Source: a virus. Taken from it: 22,617 nucleotides of DNA. Position numbers and translations under genes: made by a program. Numbering within the stretch: the stretch's first letter is position 1; each line of letters starts with the position of its first letter. Below are positions 3,969 to 21,291 of the stretch, in pieces. The stretch is from positions 1 through 22,617 of IMG/VR virus record IMGVR_UViG_3300042541_001656; one strand, 5' to 3'. Below the pieces are notes generated by a model. It worked only from the letters and a program-made list of their open reading frames with translations, searched no databases and was not told where the DNA came from.

Positions 3969-6050
3969 ATGGCAATGTTAAAAGGTAAGTTTGTAAGCAA
4001 AGATGAGGCTATTCAATCGAGTATTGATCCCGCAACGGGTGAAGACTTAGCAAGAAAATCTTACGTCGACTCAACTGCAGCCGCAGCCGCTGCTGCTATT
4101 GACCTGTCTAGTAAGGCAGATTTAGTTGACGGAAAAGTACCTTCGACACAATTGCCTAGCTACGTTGATGACGTGCTTGAATACGACGATCTTGCTGCGT
4201 TCCCTGCCACCGGCGAAACTAGCAAAATTTACGTCACAAAAGATACTAATAAAACGTATCGCTGGAGCGGTTCTTCTTACATTGAAATTTCTGCAAGCCC
4301 CGGCTCAACTGACGCTGTAGCAGAAGGTTCAACTAATCTTTATTACACAGATGCTCGTGCAAAAGCTGCAGCTGTTGGCGACGCCATCGTTGATGGGGTT
4401 GTAGACGTAGCAGCTTCACAAAATGCTGTCTTTGATGCTCTTGCTCTTAAGCAGGCAAGCCTTGGAACTGGCACTACTGATCAATTTCTTCGTGGCGATT
4501 TGTCCTGGCAAGAAGTCGCAACCTCGGTTGGGATTGCCCAAGTTAAAATTGTAAGCAAAGGCGGCGTTGACGCAACAGGCGATGGTACTTTGACCAAGCC
4601 CTATGCTACCGTTGGCGCTGCAATGGCAAGCATTACTGATGCCTCTCCTACAAAGCGTTATCTTATTAAAGTGCAGGCAGGAGCTTACACTGAAGGCGCA
4701 TTGGCACTCAAAGCCAACGTCTTTATTTGTGGTGATCAAAAAGAAGCAGTCCGCATTAGTGCATCAAGCTTTTCTTTGGCTTCTGATTTTAGCGGCTCGG
4801 CTGATAACCGCTCTGGTATGTCGAAACTTATAATTGCGGCAGGGAATGCAAACTTTGATTGGGGTGCCGTAACTTCAGCAGCAGGTAAACTTTACTTTAG
4901 CGAAGTTTCTACAAATGGTTCAGTGACTTTGACAGGTCACAATAATGCTACTGCTCAAGCCCAATTTGATTCATGTATATTTTTTGCGGCACTGACAATT
5001 AGCGGTATCAATGTCGGGTTATTTACTAACAACGTTTCCTACAGCAGCATTACACTTAATCAGCATCCAGGTGGTGGAATGCCCACCATTTTAAACGCCA
5101 TTGGTGGAAGTTGCGGAACAATAAGAGCAAACACTACTGTCAATGATTTTAACAGACGTTGTAGTTTATTCTTAAAAAGTTTCTTCTCTGATGATTTGAT
5201 CATTGATGGCCCATCTTCTTATGCTGACGCCGACCTTGATTCTCAAGGAAAAAACAGCACACAAAAATTGAATGGTGGTACTCTTGTTGCCATTACATCA
5301 AGGCTAAACCACGCTCTTGATACTCAAATGCTAAAGCCAATTGCAAACAACGCTCATAATTTGGGTGATTGGGCCAAGCAGTGGATGTTCAACTTTGCGT
5401 ATGTACACGCTTCATCCGGTACAGACATGTACCTGTTGTCTGCGATGGAAAATTACGATGCAGCAGGTGATACTGTTGGCCGCAATATTTTCATCACACC
5501 AGATGGATACGGTCTACAGACTAACGTATCTGGCGGTAATGTAGAGATTGAGACTGCTGCTGTAAGTGGCACAGGCGTTCGTGGAAAAGTTCAAATCAAA
5601 GCTAAAGAGCTTGATATGACTGCTACGAAAATCAGAAATCTTGCTAACGCCACAGATTCTACTGACGCATTAAATAAAGGCCAGCTAGATTCTGCAGTTT
5701 CAACGCTCAGTATTGAAATTTCTGGTAAACAAGCAAGCCTTGGCACTGGCACCACAAGCGAATATCTTAGAGGTGATTTAACTTGGCAAGCCGTACCCGC
5801 TGCGTTAGTTGCTAAAAAAGAAACTTTTATTCTCTCATCAACCGATTTAAGCAATGGTTATATTGATTGCGCTCATCTATCGGCAGCTGATTCTATGCTT
5901 TTAGTCACTGGCGGTATTCCTCACCAAGAGGGAGTTTCAGAAGACTACGTGCTTTCTAATGTTGGCGGCGTGACTAGAATCACTTTTAACGCTGGCCTAT
6001 TGGCTAAGTTATCCGTAGGCGATAGAGTTTACGTAATGTATCAAAAATAA
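3969..6050 (+). CDS. Large fibre protein with beta-helix domain
   Basis: This is 693 residues. The N-terminus (DPATGEDLARKSYVD, then LPSYVDDVLEYDDLAAFP...KIYVTKDTNKTYRWSG) is the standard start of many phage fibre or spike proteins. Residues about 200-455 begin with GDGTLTKPYATVGAAM and continue as short strands, the pattern of a pectate-lyase-like right-handed beta-helix trimer. Near 580 comes NATDSTDALNKGQLD, a fibre junction motif. The phrase KQASLGTGTT..(F/Y)LRGDL(S/T)WQ occurs twice, at about 161-183 and 587-609, bracketing the beta-helix. The last 80 residues match the tip of the preceding gene. The helix may bind or cut host surface polysaccharide; no catalytic residues can be identified by eye. 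Confidence 0.7.
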   Translation: MAMLKGKFVSKDEAIQSSIDPATGEDLARKSYVDSTAAAAAAAIDLSSKADLVDGKVPSTQLPSYVDDVLEYDDLAAFPATGETSKIYVTKDTNKTYRWSGSSYIEISASPGSTDAVAEGSTNLYYTDARAKAAAVGDAIVDGVVDVAASQNAVFDALALKQASLGTGTTDQFLRGDLSWQEVATSVGIAQVKIVSKGGVDATGDGTLTKPYATVGAAMASITDASPTKRYLIKVQAGAYTEGALALKANVFICGDQKEAVRISASSFSLASDFSGSADNRSGMSKLIIAAGNANFDWGAVTSAAGKLYFSEVSTNGSVTLTGHNNATAQAQFDSCIFFAALTISGINVGLFTNNVSYSSITLNQHPGGGMPTILNAIGGSCGTIRANTTVNDFNRRCSLFLKSFFSDDLIIDGPSSYADADLDSQGKNSTQKLNGGTLVAITSRLNHALDTQMLKPIANNAHNLGDWAKQWMFNFAYVHASSGTDMYLLSAMENYDAAGDTVGRNIFITPDGYGLQTNVSGGNVEIETAAVSGTGVRGKVQIKAKELDMTATKIRNLANATDSTDALNKGQLDSAVSTLSIEISGKQASLGTGTTSEYLRGDLTWQAVPAALVAKKETFILSSTDLSNGYIDCAHLSAADSMLLVTGGIPHQEGVSEDYVLSNVGGVTRITFNAGLLAKLSVGDRVYVMYQK

Positions 6051-6061
6051 GGGGAAAAAAA

Positions 6062-6139
6062 ATGCCAGCACCTAAACCGATCGAAGTTCCTGTTGAAGAC
6101 AAAAGACCAAATGAACCCGGGCCAGTACCAGAAGTTTAA
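6062..6139 (+). CDS. 25-residue proline-rich micro-protein (candidate)
   Basis: A tiny reading frame lies between the large fibre gene and the connector gene. It has AAGGGG 7 bases upstream of ATG 6062 and ends 10 bases before the next start, leaving just room for that gene's GAGGT ribosome site. The product has six prolines and four glutamates and is hydrophilic. It fills the gap neatly, which supports real translation, but there is no recognisable family. It could also be a leader that only carries ribosomes across. Confidence 0.4.
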   Translation: MPAPKPIEVPVEDKRPNEPGPVPEV

Positions 6140-6149
6140 GAGGTAAATT

Positions 6150-6965
6150 ATGACCGTCAGCCTTATAACTCAGCGTGTAATACATGAGACAACAGATATT
6201 TCTGTTGCTGTTTCCGACTTCAGAGTTGGGGATTATGCTCTAAGTTATTTGGCTGGCGAGTTCATTTACATCGGAGCAAGTAGCCCCTTTAATAATGTAT
6301 GGATGGAACTCTCAACCCCTGAAACTGCAAGCGTTGGAATGCCAACTATCGAGGTTTGGTATAACGGATCATGGTCTCCTGTAGTTGATATTATTGACCA
6401 AACCGAAGGGCTTACAAAATCAGGAAGAATTTCGTGGTCATTGCATATTGATAGCGGTTGGAATTTAGAACAAAAAAGTGAAACGGTCGGATTGAACACG
6501 TTTCAAATATATAATCGCTATTGGCTTAGAATGTCTTGGGCGTCGGCATTTTCTGTTGAGTTAAGTTATATCGGCCAGAAATTTAGTACAGACTCAGTTT
6601 TGTCTGCGATGTACCCCGACCTAATGCAGGCAGCTATATTAAACGGATTTAAAGCCGGTAAAATAAATTGGGACGAACAGCACTTTATGGCTTCAGAATC
6701 TGTTGTCAAAGAAATCAGAAAAAGAAATCTAGTTTTAGATAGAAATCAAATCTTTGATTGGACAGTTTTCGAAGACGCTTCTAGCCACAAGGTGGCGGAA
6801 ATTGTTTACCATGCTTTTGGAGCTCCATACCGTGAGCACGTCATGATGGCAAATAAGCGTTACCAAGAAGAACTTAACTCAAGATTTTACGTTGTTGATG
6901 TAAATCAAAATGGCCACATTGAACAGGGTGAAATCTACAATAAATCTGGCTGGCTAACACGATGA
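6150..6965 (+). CDS. Head-tail connector/adaptor-like protein
   Basis: This is 271 residues. The first about 145 residues are a beta-sandwich with IEVWYNGSWSPVVDI.D.T.GLTKSGRISW and YWLRMSWA, resembling an attached virion domain. The C-terminal part (about 155-271) is mostly helical (LSAMYPDLMQAAILNGFK...; VAEIVYHAFG; MMANKRYQEELNS) and fits the gp6/gp15-type ring proteins that sit under the portal. Near the end is DVNQNGHIEQGE (250-261), which matches a 12-residue EF-hand calcium loop at every ligand position. The next gene overlaps its stop (ATGA) and looks like a tail terminator, which supports a neck position. The adaptor call is inferred from layout and helix pattern. Confidence 0.55.
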   Translation: MTVSLITQRVIHETTDISVAVSDFRVGDYALSYLAGEFIYIGASSPFNNVWMELSTPETASVGMPTIEVWYNGSWSPVVDIIDQTEGLTKSGRISWSLHIDSGWNLEQKSETVGLNTFQIYNRYWLRMSWASAFSVELSYIGQKFSTDSVLSAMYPDLMQAAILNGFKAGKINWDEQHFMASESVVKEIRKRNLVLDRNQIFDWTVFEDASSHKVAEIVYHAFGAPYREHVMMANKRYQEELNSRFYVVDVNQNGHIEQGEIYNKSGWLTR

Positions 6966-7411
6966 CCAAAATTGCTGAAATATATGATGAAATTATCAAC
7001 AAGCTATCCACAGAGCTTCCAACGTTTCAGCGTGTACCAAACCCTTACTCATTAGATGAGAATACAGCTATACTTCTGCGCAAAGCTTACGGCCTTGCAA
7101 TTGGAGCGGGAACTAATACCGAACGTTATGTCGGATGTATAGCTACATGGGAGCGCTCTTATACGATTGGCCTTGTGACACAGGTTATCACAACTGAAAA
7201 TGACACTTTGGGCCGTGCCTCTGTTGAAAAGGATATTGTGGACGCCCATGGTGCTTTATTGTTAGCATTCGAAGCAGATTCAACTCTTAGCGGCAAGTGC
7301 ATCAAGGCGGTAATTGCCGATGACGGTGGTATCAACTACATACAAGGGGCTCAGAGTAAGTATCTTGCCCTAGAGATTACGTTGCGTGTAGAATATCAGG
7401 AGCAAACTTAA
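6962..7411 (+). CDS. Tail terminator / tail completion protein
   Basis: This 149-residue protein is coupled to the connector gene by an ATGA overlap and sits immediately before the tail tube gene, the usual place for the lambda gpU-type tail terminator. It has an N-terminal helix (IAEIYDEIINKLSTELP), a strand-rich core (ATWERSYTIGLVTQVIT), a central helix (VEKDIVDAHGALLLAF), and a final strand KYLALEITLRVEYQE, which is characteristic of this family. Such proteins form a hexameric ring that caps the finished tail and lets it bind the head. Sequence identity to a named member cannot be tested here. Confidence 0.65.
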   Translation: MTKIAEIYDEIINKLSTELPTFQRVPNPYSLDENTAILLRKAYGLAIGAGTNTERYVGCIATWERSYTIGLVTQVITTENDTLGRASVEKDIVDAHGALLLAFEADSTLSGKCIKAVIADDGGINYIQGAQSKYLALEITLRVEYQEQT

Positions 7412-7439
7412 ATCTTTTCATAGTTTAGGAGCCAAAAAG

Positions 7440-8930
7440 ATGGCATCAATTCAGACAAGAAATAGCGTTCTCGCTATCAAAAAAGAAACAAGCGAAGGCG
7501 TTCCAGCGAAGCCATCCGCTGCAACTGACTATGTAGCGTTGCAAGATGACTTTTCTATGCAAGGCGGTTTTAACTTGCTTGATAACGCTGAATTAAAAGC
7601 GTCCATCGGTACTGCTAAAAGCATCATCGGCGGTGAAGCACCTAGCGCAAGCCTTTCACACTACCTTCGAGCATCTGGCGTTGAAGGCCAAGCACCAAAC
7701 TACAGCCTTCTTTTAGAAGCTTGCCTTGGTGCTACGTCGGTCGCAGCGACTGAGTATGACACAATTGCAGGCTCAACTGCTGCTGCGTTAAAAGTTGGTG
7801 CCGGTGAAGGCGCTCAATTTGAACGTGGTGAAGCTGTTTTAATTAAAGATGCTGCAAACGGTTACCGTATCCGTTGCGTTGACTCTGTTGCTAGCGATGA
7901 CCTAACACTTAGCTTTGAAACTCCCGTCGCAACTCCTGCAGCTATTAACCTGGGCAAATGCGTTCTTTATAAGCCAGCTAACGACTCGCACCCGACGCTT
8001 ACACTCTGGCACTACCTCGGACAAGGCGGCGCTCTTCAGGCAATGGCAGGAAGCCGTGTAACGAGTGCATCGTTTGATATCTCTGCCGGCGAACTTATCA
8101 ACGCAAGCTACAACCTTGAGGGCGTTGGTTTCTACTTTGACCCTATGGAAGTTGAAGCTGGAGCAAACAAAATTGACTTTGATATTGGTGCTGGAACTAT
8201 TACGGCAATTGTACCTGTCAAATTATATAAAACACCTATCGAACTTGCTGACGCTGTTGCAACTTCTATGAGTGCCGCTGCTGGCGTAACTATCACATGT
8301 GAATATAGCTCTGCTGATGGTAAATTTACCGTTGCTAAAGCTTCTGGAACTCTTGCCGTAGATTGGCTAACTGGCACTGATTCTATCGGCGCTGTTCTAG
8401 GCTTTACGGCTGACGACACTGGAGCACTTAGCTATCAGTCTGACGCAGCTGTTGACTTTAGCTCTCCTCAAAATCCATCGTTCGATAACGCCGACCCATT
8501 GGCCGCAAAAGATAATGAAGTGATGATTGGCTTTGCCTCTGAGTTTGCTTGCTTTAAAGCATCTGCCGTTAGCATGACGATTGATACTCCTAAAGCTGAT
8601 ATCCCTTCGGTATGTTCAGCTTCTGGTATTCAAGGCTCTATCGTTCAAAGCCGCTCGGTTACTATTACTGTCTCTGCTTTGCTTGAAAAATATGACGCAA
8701 AACAATTTGAGCGTTTCCGCCAAAATGCTGACGTAAAATTCCAATATAGTTTTGGTCAAAAAACAGGTGGTAACTGGACACCGGGTAAGGCAGGATGCCT
8801 TTATGTACCAACCGCAACGCTTTCTTCATTCGCTGTATCTGATGCAGATGGCTTGGCTCAACTTGATATTGAGCTAAAAGCTTTTGTAAATTCAAACGGT
8901 GACGGTGAAGTTTACGTTGCCTTTGTTTAA
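7440..8930 (+). CDS. Major tail tube protein with inserted domain
   Basis: This 496-residue protein starts SIQTRNSVLAIKKETSEGVPAKP, a typical siphovirus tube opening (strand, then K.E...G.P). It ends with VSALLEKYDAKQFERFRQNADVKFQYSFG and a long final strand region, also usual for tube subunits that stack as hexamer rings. Family members are often 150-350 residues. The extra length comes at least partly from residues about 239-340, which hold a recognisable inserted domain (ANKIDFDIG...ELADAVATSMSAA...AVLGFTADDTGALSY). That domain probably projects from the tube surface. GGAG at 7427-7430 is the ribosome site. The following chaperone pair and tape measure confirm the tail context. Confidence 0.75.
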   Translation: MASIQTRNSVLAIKKETSEGVPAKPSAATDYVALQDDFSMQGGFNLLDNAELKASIGTAKSIIGGEAPSASLSHYLRASGVEGQAPNYSLLLEACLGATSVAATEYDTIAGSTAAALKVGAGEGAQFERGEAVLIKDAANGYRIRCVDSVASDDLTLSFETPVATPAAINLGKCVLYKPANDSHPTLTLWHYLGQGGALQAMAGSRVTSASFDISAGELINASYNLEGVGFYFDPMEVEAGANKIDFDIGAGTITAIVPVKLYKTPIELADAVATSMSAAAGVTITCEYSSADGKFTVAKASGTLAVDWLTGTDSIGAVLGFTADDTGALSYQSDAAVDFSSPQNPSFDNADPLAAKDNEVMIGFASEFACFKASAVSMTIDTPKADIPSVCSASGIQGSIVQSRSVTITVSALLEKYDAKQFERFRQNADVKFQYSFGQKTGGNWTPGKAGCLYVPTATLSSFAVSDADGLAQLDIELKAFVNSNGDGEVYVAFV

Positions 8931-15884: not shown

Positions 15885-18527
15885 ATGGCTAACATTAAAA
15901 AACTATATTTTGCCAACGGCACGGACGTTACCGCACCAGACGACTTGGCTTTCCCTGCGACTGTGTACGCTAATGATGCAGCTTATGTTGCTGTTAATGG
16001 CGCCGCTGTTGACGGTGATTTCTACCTTAATAGCACGCTAAAAGCCTTGCGTGTTTATTCTAACGGGGCATGGCGCACTACGATAATGGCAACTGATGCC
16101 GCTGACGCCACCAAACTCTTTGGCGTTGACTTGACGTCAGCCACAACGGGAACGCAAGCTACAATAAAATTTAACAACACAACAAATAAAACTTACACTT
16201 TCCCTGATATTCAGGGAGAAGTTGTTTTAACGGTAGGCGACCAAACCGTCGACGGTAAGACTTTAACTAACGTCACTCTTAATCAACCAAAAGTAACGGG
16301 CGGCTCTATTGACGTTCCTGCAGCCGGTGCTTTGTCTGTTGGTTCAAGCATTGGTGCCAATAATTTGACGCTTGGTGGAGCAACTTCTACAGTTATCGTC
16401 TCGGGTAACTTGACCGTTCAAGGAACGACGACAACTATTGAATCTACAAACTTAGATGTAACAGACAAAAACATCACAGTAAATAAAGGCGGTAGCGATG
16501 CTTCCTCCGAGGGTGCTGGATTAACCGTTGACCGTGTTGGTACTGATGGATCTTTGATTTATAAGGACGCAGCTACAAATAAGTTTGCAATAGGAACTCT
16601 TGGCGCAGAAAAGGATATCGCTACTATGTTTGATATCACAGCGGCGAATTTAAGTGGCGTGGTAACACCGGCTAACGGTGGTACAGGTGTAAGCAATAAC
16701 AACGCTGCGACATTAACAAGAAGCGGCAATCATGCAGTGACATTTACAACTACCGGGACAACAAGCCTCACCTTGCCAACAAGCGGAACACTTGCACGTG
16801 TTGAAGATATTGGAGCATCTGGTGTATACGGGCCGGCAGTATCTGACGTTAATAATTTTGTCCTCTGGGATAACACCACGGGCACATTAGTTAAAAACTC
16901 TCTTGTAACGCTGACAAATTCCACTATGACAGGAATTGGGTCAATTGAATTTTCAGATTTAAAACTTGGATCAAGTATAATTCAAACAACTGTAGCAAAT
17001 TCAGATTTGACGATCATTCCTAACGGCACGGGAAAAATTCTTTTAAGAAGAAACGTAAGCGTTACAGATAATAATGGTATTTCTTTTAACGATGCAACTA
17101 ACTCATTGTCATCTACAATCAAAGCACAATCAACTCTGACAAATAGCAGAGTGCATTTAATTCCTGACGACACAGGAAATATTGTTTTACATACGGCAAC
17201 TCAAGATTTATTTAACAAAAAAATATCCTCTACCGAAGCTATCACGGGGGCCTTAAAACTTCCTGCTGGTACAGAAGCCGAACGCCCAACAGGTGTAAAC
17301 GGTTACGTCCGTTATAACTCAACCTCGGATTCGTTTGAGGGTTACACAACGGCAGGTTGGGCCGCTATTGCTGGCGGCGGCGGTGGAACAATTGATAAAG
17401 TGCTTCAAGCAAGTCACGGTTTTGCTCTTGGTGATACTCTTTACTTAGTCGGCACTACTTACACAAAAGCAATTGCCACATCATCGGCAGCAGCAGAGGT
17501 TGTAGGCGTTGTTAGTAAGATTGTAGATGCAAATAATTTTGAATTAACGCTATCCGGAGAAGTTACCGGCCTAACAGGTTTGACAGCTGGAGAAGTTTAT
17601 TTCTTGTCTGCTGCAACAGCTGGTCTTTTAACTGTCACAGAGCCAAGCACAATAGGTCAAGTTTCGGTGCCTGTTGGGATTGCATCAAGCACAACAAGCC
17701 TATACGTGGCTCCTAAGCGTGGCGTAGTGATTGGCGGTACAAATGCCCGAGCAAACGTATCGTTAACATCTGGCGCAACTACGAGCGTACAGAATCTTGC
17801 AGGATATGACGCAGGTGAGTTAACTGGCTGGGTGTTTATCTCAAGCGCAGCGCCAGTGCGGTTTTATGTCTCGGCCAAGTTTGCTAAGTCTGGATCTGGT
17901 GGTGATTATAACCTAAGTTACCAAACAACAGGTGATGTTCCTCCTGTCGGTTTTTCACTTCAAATCAGCACATCTGGACTTTTAAGTTGTACACTTCCAG
18001 CAAGTTCTGGAACGACAAGCGTTATCAACTACGCTCTTAATGCCCCTGCAATCGGCGCAAGTTTCCCGCTGACTGTTGATGCTGGCACAATCTTGAGTGG
18101 TACTGTTGCATCTGCAAGGCTTCCGGCTGGTCAGTATCCAGGTTCTACTGCTGGCACTGCGATTGCTGCTGGTTATGTTGGAGAATCTTATAACCTAAAG
18201 ACATCCGGAGATATTTCTATAGGCACAGCAAATACAAACATTCTTTCCCAGTCACTAGGTGCGGGAACTTGGCTTATAAATGCAGGTGTTACTATGTTAT
18301 CGGCGACGACAAATACTGGTTTTGTAGCTATCTATCAAAGTGCAACAACTAACGTAATAAGCGCAGAGACTTCGGCATACTTGAATAGTACAAGAGCATT
18401 TGCTGGGGTATCTCATGTTGTAACTTTATCTGCAACAACAACTATCGGTGTTGTTTCTTCAGTTAATAATGGTTCGGGAACGGCGGGAGCACAAAGGTGC
18501 TATTTAGTTGCTACAAGAGTCGCTTAA
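15885..18527 (+). CDS. Long tail fibre protein, first of three with shared tip
   Basis: This 880-residue protein starts one base after the hub stop; GTAGGAGT is the ribosome site. It carries several widespread fibre phrases in order: FPDIQGEVVLT (about 105), VTDKNITVNKGGSDASSEGAGLTVDR (about 190-215), NGGTGVSNNNAATL (about 264-278), LPAGTEAERPTGVNGYVRYNS..FEGYT (about 460-490), and a beta module HGFALGDTLYLVG...LTAGEVYFLS (about 510-585). Residues about 757-880 (GTAIAAGYVGESY..., ending ATRVA) form a tip domain also found in the next two genes. It probably trimerises and contacts the host. No intramolecular chaperone is visible at the end. Confidence 0.7.
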   Translation: MANIKKLYFANGTDVTAPDDLAFPATVYANDAAYVAVNGAAVDGDFYLNSTLKALRVYSNGAWRTTIMATDAADATKLFGVDLTSATTGTQATIKFNNTTNKTYTFPDIQGEVVLTVGDQTVDGKTLTNVTLNQPKVTGGSIDVPAAGALSVGSSIGANNLTLGGATSTVIVSGNLTVQGTTTTIESTNLDVTDKNITVNKGGSDASSEGAGLTVDRVGTDGSLIYKDAATNKFAIGTLGAEKDIATMFDITAANLSGVVTPANGGTGVSNNNAATLTRSGNHAVTFTTTGTTSLTLPTSGTLARVEDIGASGVYGPAVSDVNNFVLWDNTTGTLVKNSLVTLTNSTMTGIGSIEFSDLKLGSSIIQTTVANSDLTIIPNGTGKILLRRNVSVTDNNGISFNDATNSLSSTIKAQSTLTNSRVHLIPDDTGNIVLHTATQDLFNKKISSTEAITGALKLPAGTEAERPTGVNGYVRYNSTSDSFEGYTTAGWAAIAGGGGGTIDKVLQASHGFALGDTLYLVGTTYTKAIATSSAAAEVVGVVSKIVDANNFELTLSGEVTGLTGLTAGEVYFLSAATAGLLTVTEPSTIGQVSVPVGIASSTTSLYVAPKRGVVIGGTNARANVSLTSGATTSVQNLAGYDAGELTGWVFISSAAPVRFYVSAKFAKSGSGGDYNLSYQTTGDVPPVGFSLQISTSGLLSCTLPASSGTTSVINYALNAPAIGASFPLTVDAGTILSGTVASARLPAGQYPGSTAGTAIAAGYVGESYNLKTSGDISIGTANTNILSQSLGAGTWLINAGVTMLSATTNTGFVAIYQSATTNVISAETSAYLNSTRAFAGVSHVVTLSATTTIGVVSSVNNGSGTAGAQRCYLVATRVA

Positions 18528-18594
18528 AGGTGCGCATGTTAACACACTTAGCCGGTTTAAATTAACGAATCAAGAATATCATATGGAGCAACCA

Positions 18595-19923
18595 ATGTCA
18601 TCATCAGCTTTTACCCCTACACAAACGCAGATTACAAATAATGTTCCTACAAATGTTCCTATTGTTGAAGCAGGGCAAGATTATACAGGAGCGATCACCG
18701 GGGGTGGAAGTGCTACATATAATTATGTCTCTAGAAAATGGAGAAGAGTTGGCGATAGTGTACAAGTAAACTGGTATTTTTCTGTTACTGCAACTGGTTC
18801 AGGAGCATCTAATTTATTGTTACCTTTGCCAACTGGCATGACTGTAGATTTTACTAAAACATCAAATGGTCAGATTATTGGATCTGGTTACAGGCTTAGT
18901 GGAGGAACTAAAAACGCAGCATTTACTCCAAGAGTTGTGACGGGAACATCAAATGCATTTGTTATTGAAACTTCTTCAGGTTCAATTCTAACGGGGAGTG
19001 CAGTTGTATCAGGTGAAGAATTTAATCTAACTGCAACAATAGCAATCTCAGAATGGGCCGGTTCCGGCACCACTACACTAGCGACAAGAGCGGTTGAGGA
19101 ATATGCGGCAGCAACTAGCGGTACATGGGATGCAAATGCTACAGCAGCACAAACTATTTATGGTTTAGAAGGTGCACCAATTACTGGAGCAATAAGTGCA
19201 GCTTCCAGAAACAAAGTTGTTCGTTTTCAGTCACCAATTTTGCCAACAGATAAAATATTTTTAGAAATTTACAATTTAAATGGAAATCCGGGATGGGTTA
19301 GCCATACAGATATTGGCTTTGGTCTTGTACAACAACTTAACCAAGTTTATGGAGCACAAATCAACCCAGTAAACGCTGGGTTTAATACAGATTGTATTGT
19401 TTATTTTTATCAATTTTATTGCCCCGCTAGTAATGCTTATGGTGGAGCAGGTCAGCAGTGGAGTAATGGACTTAGATGGCGTCTGCGAAAAGTCTCCGGC
19501 GGAGCCCAAGTAGGCTACCCCGTCTCATCTAGAAATATAGTTGGGGATACCAGCGGAAGTGTTGTGCCGGTAGGAATGCTGGGGGAGTCCTATACAGATA
19601 CAACAGCAAGTGGCAGCCCAGTATCTCTAACTACCTCAATGGGAACACAAATAACTAGAACTCTATCTGCGGGAACATGGCTATTATTTGCTTCCGTTCG
19701 TACTGACTCTCTAACTACAGGTGATACAATTGGACTTCAATGGTCAGATTTACTAGGAAATGCTGACACGGTATATTCAAGCGGGGGAGCTTCTATTTCT
19801 ATGTCTATTCCCCCGAGAGTTTATATAGCTAGCGGATCAACTGCACTTAATTTTCAAGCAAGCAATACAACAGCCTCCCGTGGTAGGTGCTGGAGTAAAG
19901 TAGTTTATGTACGAATCGCCTAA
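18595..19923 (+). CDS. Tail fibre protein, second of three with shared tip
   Basis: This is 442 residues from ATG 18595, which has GGAG six bases upstream; longer forms from ATG 18583 or TTG 18508 have weaker sites. N-terminal residues about 25-175 are a sandwich domain frequent in fibre proteins (WRRVGDSVQVNWYF..., LPLPTGMTVDF, FNLTATIAISEWAG). The middle has RNKVVRFQSPILPTDKIFLEIY. Residues about 321-442 (GSVVPVGMLGESYTDT, LSAGTWLLFASV, ending VVYVRIA) are a diverged copy of the tip domain in the preceding fibre. Codons shift toward AGA, GGA and GCA compared with the capsid genes, which hints at separate ancestry. Likely a receptor-binding side fibre. Confidence 0.65.
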   Translation: MSSSAFTPTQTQITNNVPTNVPIVEAGQDYTGAITGGGSATYNYVSRKWRRVGDSVQVNWYFSVTATGSGASNLLLPLPTGMTVDFTKTSNGQIIGSGYRLSGGTKNAAFTPRVVTGTSNAFVIETSSGSILTGSAVVSGEEFNLTATIAISEWAGSGTTTLATRAVEEYAAATSGTWDANATAAQTIYGLEGAPITGAISAASRNKVVRFQSPILPTDKIFLEIYNLNGNPGWVSHTDIGFGLVQQLNQVYGAQINPVNAGFNTDCIVYFYQFYCPASNAYGGAGQQWSNGLRWRLRKVSGGAQVGYPVSSRNIVGDTSGSVVPVGMLGESYTDTTASGSPVSLTTSMGTQITRTLSAGTWLLFASVRTDSLTTGDTIGLQWSDLLGNADTVYSSGGASISMSIPPRVYIASGSTALNFQASNTTASRGRCWSKVVYVRIA

Positions 19924-19938
19924 TCAGGAGGAATAAAC

Positions 19939-20409
19939 ATGACAGCTAAAGCACAATTACAATCATCAGGTGACGGTACTGCGATACCGGTGGGGTATGT
20001 TGGGGAAACAAAAACTATATCACAGCCATCAAATACAAATTTTCCAGCCTCGGATGTTTTTGGAGACATCGGTTCATTTCAATTAACTCCTGGTATTTGG
20101 TTGTTGTCTGCATCTATGATGTATTCCATGGACAATGACGTTACCAATTTTTCATACGGTACTTTTGGATTTAGTACTACGTCTGGAAACTCATACCCCG
20201 ATCAATTGTTCGATATGTCTAACTTTAATTATATACCGAGAGGATTCGGGCGAACTGTTGATAACTTTGTTATTGGGACAGTTTCAGTTCCTTGTTTTTA
20301 TGTAAATATTTCAGCATTAACAACCTATTATCTTAAGATTATGCCTGGAACTTTTTCGGGAACTGTACCCCAATATAAAGCAAGCGCAAGAGCAGTAAGA
20401 ATCGCCTAA
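19939..20409 (+). CDS. Small tip-domain protein, third fibre paralogue
   Basis: This 156-residue protein has AGGAGG before ATG 19939, the strongest ribosome site in the region. It is almost only the tip domain: GDGTAIPVGYVGETKT at residues 11-26, LTPGIWLLSASMMYS around 50-64, ending ARAVRIA. It lines up with the last 120 or so residues of the two genes before it. It may be a stand-alone cap that binds the end of a fibre, a soluble decoy, or a swap partner in recombination between fibre tips. The function is not known. Confidence 0.6.
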   Translation: MTAKAQLQSSGDGTAIPVGYVGETKTISQPSNTNFPASDVFGDIGSFQLTPGIWLLSASMMYSMDNDVTNFSYGTFGFSTTSGNSYPDQLFDMSNFNYIPRGFGRTVDNFVIGTVSVPCFYVNISALTTYYLKIMPGTFSGTVPQYKASARAVRIA

Positions 20410-20418
20410 GAGGTACAC

Positions 20419-21291
20419 ATGTTTACACGCATTGCCAGTTTAGTTTTATGCCTGCTTGCTTTGTCGTGCTCAAAAAAGCCTGCGCAATCTCCTGACCAAA
20501 TTGAGCCTAAGATTAAAGCTAAGGCTGAGCTTTACAAATCCCTACATAAAGGTTGGGCGCACCAAGGCGGTTGCGACTCTTTAGCGTTTACAGCTTTATG
20601 CAAACTATCAAGCGGATGCCAAGAGGCAGATATTTTACAAGCTGAAGGCGAACCCGGGCGCTGGTATCGTAATCCTGGAAAGCGTTGCTATGATGACGGC
20701 CAAAGCAAATCAGACATTTCTAAAGACATGCTCATGATGCTTTTCCCGTATCTCTACGCTACCGGCGATAAGCAAAACCTCACTGAGATATATGAGTACG
20801 GAAAAGCCAACGGCAATGTAATGGGCCGTGGGCCTATTAGCCGTACATTCATGACTCCTCCCATGGTCTTTTTGCTTCAACGGATGATTGGTTTTAATGT
20901 TTCGGTAAAATCGGAAACACCTGTTATCAAAAAAGCAGGGTTTGAAAAACACCTTGATGCCGTAGCCTTGTTAACAAAAGCAATGGTAGGTGATGGCCTT
21001 AATTTAGTTGAGTATGAAGAAATTAGAAAATACTCACAAGAAAGCCCTAGAAACGCCTTATTCTCCGCCTTGTATAACAAGCACCGTGACGGCAACCAAC
21101 AGCAAGCAATTGATATCTTGCTTGATGGGTCTTTATTTCCTAGTGATAGACTTCCGACAAGCAAAGAGCGCTGCGAGGAATACCTATGGCAGCGTGATAA
21201 TGATCCAAAAGATTGGGGCCCTTGTGATGCTAATAGAACTCATGACGGCGTCGATTTTTTATTCGCCGCCTATGTTGCCGGGCAAATTTAA
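20419..21291 (+). CDS. Predicted lipoprotein, cysteine-rich, unknown function
   Basis: This is 290 residues; AGAGG lies 7 bases before the ATG. Residues 1-16 are a short hydrophobic signal peptide and ALSC (14-17) looks like a lipobox, though the first position is Ala rather than Leu. Ser at +2 suggests outer membrane. The mature part has cysteines at 52, 61, 67, 90, 252 and 269, so disulphides in the periplasm are likely. GCDSLAFTALCKL, the GRWYRNPGKRC block and DISKDMLMMLFPYL look like a helical-toroid-like fold but show no sure active site. It follows the fibre genes where lysis or exclusion genes often lie. Options are a lysis helper, superinfection exclusion, or a wall-active enzyme; none is shown. 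Confidence 0.65.
   Translation: MFTRIASLVLCLLALSCSKKPAQSPDQIEPKIKAKAELYKSLHKGWAHQGGCDSLAFTALCKLSSGCQEADILQAEGEPGRWYRNPGKRCYDDGQSKSDISKDMLMMLFPYLYATGDKQNLTEIYEYGKANGNVMGRGPISRTFMTPPMVFLLQRMIGFNVSVKSETPVIKKAGFEKHLDAVALLTKAMVGDGLNLVEYEEIRKYSQESPRNALFSALYNKHRDGNQQQAIDILLDGSLFPSDRLPTSKERCEEYLWQRDNDPKDWGPCDANRTHDGVDFLFAAYVAGQI

Follow-up and report, generated by a model that had tools for sequence, protein, structure and literature searches.

Organization of the locus

The analyzed stretch of DNA, here called the window, comprises the 22,617 bases of an IMG/VR virus record and is probably a fragment. Its tail genes, which include a tail tube-like gene, a tape measure gene and several genes without an assigned family, run from left to right and end in three consecutive genes, numbered 1 to 3, whose products all finish in a related terminal domain, the tip (Table 1). 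The three gene positions are referred to as slots 1 to 3, and each tip is divided into a variable cassette and the border blocks that flank it. In gene 1, the sequence profile described below places the tip at residues 746–880. The longest open reading frame of gene 2 spans positions 18508–19923; translation likely starts at the ATG at 18595 (MSSSAF), because relatives that include the start begin there and the residue numbers of a preliminary description of this locus fit, and an alternative start at 18583 would give a product of 446 amino acids. Further upstream, a 693-residue protein (positions 3969–6050) precedes the tail tube gene; close to the N-terminus it matches PHROGs of the minor-tail/peptidase type, and its residues 554–588 resemble a YadA stalk.

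Gene 3 had been described as little more than the tip domain, in agreement with its 156-residue product, a free-standing tip behind a 23-residue leader. An AGGAGG Shine-Dalgarno sequence precedes its ATG and the leader is kept across phages; gene 3 is therefore probably expressed, which makes a role as a silent donor doubtful. A weak Pfam match of gene 3 to Na_K-ATPase (E = 0.14) was dismissed as noise. The gene to its right encodes a secreted, lipoprotein-like protein that matched no Pfam or PHROG family, and it adjoins the tip genes in many relatives as well; superinfection exclusion or surface glycan processing are guesses only for its role.

Table 1. Genes, border blocks and variable cassettes of the tip region, in window coordinates.
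Feature	Position	Strand	Basis
Gene 1 (slot 1): long tail-fibre-like body with terminal tip, 880 aa	15885..18527	+	ORF listing; tip by profile
Gene-1 tip 5′ border block GGTTATGTTGGAGAA, encoding GYVGE; a weaker version of the consensus	18171..18185	+	
Gene-1 variable tip cassette; jelly roll in the AlphaFold2 model	18186..18515	+	
Gene-1 3′ border block AGAGTCGCTTAA, diverged form	18516..18527	+	
Gene 2 (slot 2): modular body with tip, 442 aa from the likely ATG at 18595	18595..19923	+	ORF; start in relatives
Gene-2 inner border block GTTTLATRAVEEY, between two body modules	19067..19105	+	DNA conservation, relatives
Gene-2 tip 5′ border block GGAATGCTGGGGGAG, codes GMLGE; homology to L003 stops at 19587	19573..19587	+	
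Gene-2 variable tip cassette	19588..19911	+	45% DNA identity to L003, flanks 90–92%
Gene-2 3′ border block GTACGAATCGCCTAA; direct repeat of 20395–20409	19909..19923	+	
Gene 3 (slot 3): free-standing tip with conserved 23-aa leader, 156 aa	19939..20409	+	ORF; leader; fold
Gene-3 tip 5′ border block GGGTATGTTGGGGAA, consensus form; homology to L003 stops at 20007	19993..20007	+	
Gene-3 variable tip cassette	20008..20397	+	46% DNA identity to L003, flanks 90–91%
Gene-3 3′ border block AGAATCGCCTAA, consensus form	20398..20409	+	
Secreted, lipoprotein-like protein, 290 aa; conserved right flank of the exchange region	20419..21291	+	Relatives

Homology and fold of the three ends

The motifs that the preliminary description had reported at the ends of the three products are present at the residues it gave. 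In a MAFFT alignment, 17 columns are identical in all three ends, including (in gene-3 numbering) G13, G19, G22, E23, L49, G52, W54, L55, A58, R154 and A156. Likewise, the pairwise local BLOSUM62 scores of 98, 70 and 66 stand well above the means of 2000 shuffles each (41, 32 and 32), with 0, 0 and 1 shuffles reaching the real score, so that the three ends do align better than shuffled sequences, as had been anticipated. Moreover, a profile of 49 tips, all taken from contigs other than the window, selects exactly three proteins in the window, the products of genes 1, 2 and 3 (E = 2.7e-11, 9.6e-16 and 2e-32; 39.7, 54.2 and 108.3 bits); by comparison, shuffled ends score 5.7–12.3 bits at best, and the next ORF of the window scores 4.2 bits. 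The homology of the three gene ends is thus confirmed.

The gene-3 end and the gene-1 tip were folded with AlphaFold2 as monomers, and the gene-2 tip was assigned by profile alone. Both models (pLDDT 83.2 and pTM 0.77 for gene 3; pLDDT 79.8 and pTM 0.73 for the gene-1 tip) are eight- or nine-stranded jelly rolls, so that the predicted folds agree for the two tips modelled. Foldseek searches of the PDB with the two models return overlapping top matches, namely the BC2L-C lectin, the PLTL lectin and members of the TNF family; C1QL3 is additionally matched by the gene-1 tip, and a short-fibre domain of cyanophage A-1(L) by gene 3. Tail fibres and phage C1q proteins are found among the matching viral predicted structures. 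The models accordingly place the tips of genes 1 and 3 in the TNF/C1q-like jelly-roll class, the fold class of trimeric lectins. None of the 52 tips collected here matched any Pfam family at E ≤ 0.01; the modelled tips thus share the fold class of C1q and TNF without belonging to those Pfam families. The earlier proposal of a set of receptor-binding-type ends is supported by the predicted fold and by the location of the tips, which may well bind receptors.

Gene 3 matches the C-terminal part of PHROG 11393, a tail fibre protein family (E = 2.5e-5, positions 406–536 of 538 in the profile), as do 19 of the 52 tips in total, the best at 1.1e-14. Further, the C-terminal 135 residues (399–533) of gp47 from the Pseudomonas phage Pa193 match the tip profile with E = 2.4e-11. 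This protein is the tail fibre of a Pbunavirus whose published model (PDB 8VBX) spans about residues 1–340 (PMC11042391), and its tip therefore lies beyond the resolved part and resembles the window tips at the level of sequence only. The fibre of Enterobacter phage SDFMU_Pec was found with tblastn as a further relative.

Distribution of the tips across viral contigs

Scans of viral contigs and iterative profiles brought together 52 distinct tips from about 36 contigs, and almost all of these tips lie at exact protein C-termini. The order of gene 1, gene 2, gene 3 and the lipoprotein-like gene recurs in relatives; it is also present in contigs such as L006, where the right flank has SU10-adaptor-like and virion genes instead of those of the window. 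When the viral collection was scanned for DNA patterns of the gene-3 leader and of the gene-2 linker, no further contigs emerged, and the collection thus seems nearly exhausted for these forms. A separate, unrelated phage contig (L017, positions 5211–8429) has three consecutive genes with tip ends (680, 182 and 189 amino acids) and no gene-3 leader.

Among cultured phages, tblastn with each full gene gave nothing for genes 2 and 3, and low-complexity or body matches only for gene 1. Two candidate matches were rejected: a Rhizobium phage match proved to be a tail collar protein without a tip, and a 16-nt match in Vibrio phages, obtained by blastn with a 30-nt border, lies inside a different C-terminal domain and was treated as chance because of its E value of 8 and its missing RIA end. 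A search for hosts in GTDB genomes gave no relative with either of the two alignments used; since the confirming step of that search relies on gene 3 of the window only, distant tips could have escaped it.

Replacement of whole tips relative to the nearest tip-bearing relative

When the window is compared with its nearest tip-bearing relative, L003, the DNA identity alternates sharply, at 91.8, 45.3, 90.1, 45.7 and 90.9% in successive stretches. These correspond to the body of gene 2 up to the GMLGE codons; the gene-2 tip; the 3′ block, spacer and gene-3 leader; the gene-3 tip; and the gene-3 3′ block with the lipoprotein-like gene. The identity breaks at 19587/19909 and 20007/20392, which are the borders of the tips, indicating that both tips differ as whole units within conserved surroundings. 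The window thereby shows replacement without a visible donor, an observation that counts against the exchange of tips proposed below.

Three other contigs (L024, L025 and L026) are 99% identical to the window and stop short of the tips (at 17796, 15051 and 15083 in window coordinates), which would fit a break in assembly near the variable region; the closest comparison is for this reason limited to L003. According to the record names, L025 and L003 share one IMG metagenome number, 3300042446, so that a phage 99% identical to the window and another with different tips seem to share one sample.

Movement of cassettes between slots

The preliminary description had suggested searching related phages for exchange of tips between the genes, and such exchange is found. 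In particular, the variable tip part is 89% identical between gene 2 of L006 and gene 3 of L007, and the tips are 81% identical between gene 3 of L002 and gene 2 of L021, 74% between gene 3 of L067 and gene 2 of L069, and 66% between gene 3 of L008 and gene 2 of L009; the gene-3 tip of L005 is 89% identical to the terminus of an L014 product whose body is unrelated. In these cross-slot pairs, the DNA homology extends from in or near the GYVGE block to the RIA-stop block, and the flanks follow the slot. Clear recent pairs number only about five, and they include none of the window tips, whose nearest relatives remain remote, which also counts against exchange.

The same pattern is evident across the family. 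Of 35 gene-2 and gene-3 tips, 12 have their closest relative in their own slot, compared to 17.0 ± 3.7 in shuffles; for the 23 residues just upstream of the tip, the corresponding count is 34 of 35, which none of 20000 shuffles reached. In a tree, the slot labels of gene-2 and gene-3 tips are as scattered as shuffled labels. A 276-residue gene 3 in L067 (positions 7327–8157) has the usual gene-3 leader followed by a gene-2-type linker PVSARNIIGDTSG; judged by this arrangement and by its tip shared with L069, it is a recombinant between slots.

Three homologous and adjacent ends are what would be expected if one tip had been copied along the operon and its copies had diverged within one lineage, and tip duplication had indeed been named as the source of the set. 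However, tips within one genome are no closer to each other than tips of different genomes (mean likeness 0.116 versus 0.109), which argues against recent tandem duplication, and the nearest relatives sit in other slots of other phages. As tips within a phage are as different as tips between phages, the slots look filled from a shared pool rather than copied from a neighbour; duplication as the source has very little chance of being right, and an ancient duplication that founded the slots is possible. The accompanying idea of a store for recombination is supported in that the tips appear to take part in cross-slot recombination, whereas a silent store is doubtful in view of the probable expression of gene 3.

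Conservation of the borders as DNA

Both borders (GGGTATGTTGGGGAA at the 5′ side and AGAATCGCCTAA at the 3′ side) are conserved as DNA beyond the protein requirement. The codon GGG is used at the two glycine positions of GYVGE in 39 of 52 and 35 of 50 tips, compared to 12% elsewhere in the same genes, and the tyrosine codon is TAT in all 37 of 37; at the other border, the terminal isoleucine is ATC in 39 of 51 (21% elsewhere) and the terminal alanine is GCC in 28 of 46 (14% elsewhere). At the GYVG codons, the z-scores for codon identity reach 14.8, 7.0, 4.0 and 11.3, and at RIA they reach 4.6, 7.8 and 5.1, while the range for conserved residues within the domain is −1.3 to 3.8; since z-scores ignore the relatedness of the sequences, these inner positions are the real control. 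The GGG bias is not an artefact of the search, because contigs found through the gene-2 linker alone, without the GYVGE pattern, show the same GGG.

The blocks are also nearly confined to the tips. All 22 occurrences of the strict 5′ pattern in 432 kb lie at a tip border, and 19 of the 20 occurrences of the 3′ pattern lie at a tip end. The single exception is in L011 (positions 6540–6660), where gene 1 has an unrelated C-terminus with its own TAA-TAA and the 3′ block follows directly behind it, untranslated, an apparent scar of cassette replacement. Further, ten relatives retain the inner block of gene 2 at the DNA level, and the body modules that adjoin it reassort independently; for example, L006 and L011 share the first gene-2 module at 95–99% and differ in the rest, and L009 and L011 share the tip at 99% and differ in the body modules. 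The conservation of the blocks as DNA may reflect either selection for exchange or homogenization through exchange itself.

Selection for working junctions could by itself set the breaks at domain borders, and the blocks are short; border DNA kept for another reason (RNA structure or translation end effects), together with illegitimate recombination and selection for in-frame swaps, would then create the same mosaic. Yet the positions of the junctions and the blocks agree to within a few bases, the body modules of gene 2 are separated by a similar DNA-level block at another exchange border, and the 3′ block of L011 persists untranslated at its apparent exchange scar, all of which make this explanation improbable.

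DNA-conserved borders that occur almost only around the tips and are common to unrelated phages could also be recognized by a dedicated system, in which a site-specific recombinase or other factor moves the cassettes, as in a shufflon. The 5′ and 3′ blocks are, however, unlike each other and not inverted, and no inverted repeats flanking the tips were found. Moreover, serine recombinases were found in none of the 32 records (the window and 31 related records, which are partial), and tyrosine recombinases in four of them, the window not included. Because all of the records may be fragments, the missing recombinase is weak evidence; a dedicated system nonetheless appears very improbable.

Hypervariable C-terminal domains of phage fibres are classic targets of diversity-generating retroelements. 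Here, the variation spans the whole domain, includes changes in length and involves whole alleles common to several phages instead of adenine-specific point changes, and a reverse transcriptase was found in 0 of the 32 records, which may be incomplete, with the controls working. The likelihood that a retroelement diversifies the tips is negligible.

Discussion

The favoured explanation, with a probability of roughly three in four, is that phages exchange receptor-binding-type tips through homologous recombination within short blocks that the tips have in common. Each gene would end in a trimeric-lectin-type tip with a TNF/C1q-like jelly roll, proposed to bind receptors; genes 1 and 2 would bear it on long or modular bodies, and gene 3 would be a tip with a short fixed leader. 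The exchanged cassette would comprise about 110–140 codons, from the GYVGE block to the final RIA-stop block, and cassettes from a pool common to many aquatic phages would replace one another in any slot. During mixed infections, homologous or recombineering-like exchange would place crossovers within the short blocks on both sides of each tip, and, because the blocks are conserved as DNA and common to all slots, the gene-3 tip of one phage could enter gene 2 of another.

General homologous exchange with crossovers in the blocks explains the cassettes, their borders and the scarcity of recombinases in the partial records together, and the observed junctions fall within a few bases of short conserved blocks on either side of the variable tip. 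Counting against it, the blocks are short for RecA-type recombination. On balance, the exchange probably proceeds through general recombination, and the possession of several tips may widen the host range. A stronger version, in which the border sequences are true DNA sites selected for exchange, a plug-and-socket standard of unrelated aquatic phages that admits any tip into any slot, the tip-only gene 3 serving as a ready-made port or donor and a phage or host recombination factor possibly assisting, is tentative and on present evidence unlikely.

Related systems differ in instructive ways. Shufflons and invertible tail-fibre segments (R64 pilV, Mu/P1) have interchangeable C-terminal tips joined at a conserved motif, as here, with extra copies beside the main gene. 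In contrast to them, no recombinase or inverted sites were found in the present, partial records; gene 3 looks expressed and not silent; and exchange appears to take place between phages, with no programmed switch. In work by Tetart et al. (1998; cited in PMC7468147), the adhesin specificity of T-even phages was reportedly swapped by recombination between conserved motifs, and tip segments are there, as here, swapped between phages at short conserved motifs. The T-even adhesins have another fold and are exchanged between equivalent genes, whereas the present cassettes recur in several genes that lie side by side, one of them a tip-only gene.

C1q-type receptor-binding domains form hypervariable islands in aquatic phages (PMC3909814; PMC7468147), and recombination has been proposed for the variation of such receptor-binding proteins (PMC7468147). 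These metaviromic-island proteins have the same fold class at their fibre ends, with highly variable alleles in otherwise near-identical phages (PMC3909814; PMC7468147); their variation concerns one gene position, whereas here there is cross-slot movement with exact borders and DNA-level blocks. Mosaicism of receptor-binding proteins is general, in that the N-terminal part is kept and the C-terminal domain is exchanged (PMC10684548); the exchanged ends are often non-homologous there, while the present tips form a single family in which the borders are standard and a genome has more than one slot. Within the literature searched, whose coverage is partial, no description was found of a single tip family that moves among consecutive genes regardless of slot, of a tip-only gene or of DNA-level border blocks. 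As far as that literature extends, tail-fibre mosaicism is known, and the cross-slot cassettes, the tip-only gene and the DNA-level border blocks appear to be new.

Overall, the results provide a sequence-defined cassette model for the renewal of host-recognition ends in uncultured phages, and suggest a route by which a phage could alter the target of its attachment. With the borders, the slots and the pool identified, exchange becomes measurable from metagenomes, and the model would help to explain why such regions break assemblies and show up as metaviromic islands. Should the borders indeed be selected as DNA, they would represent evolved receptor-exchange sites common to unrelated phages.
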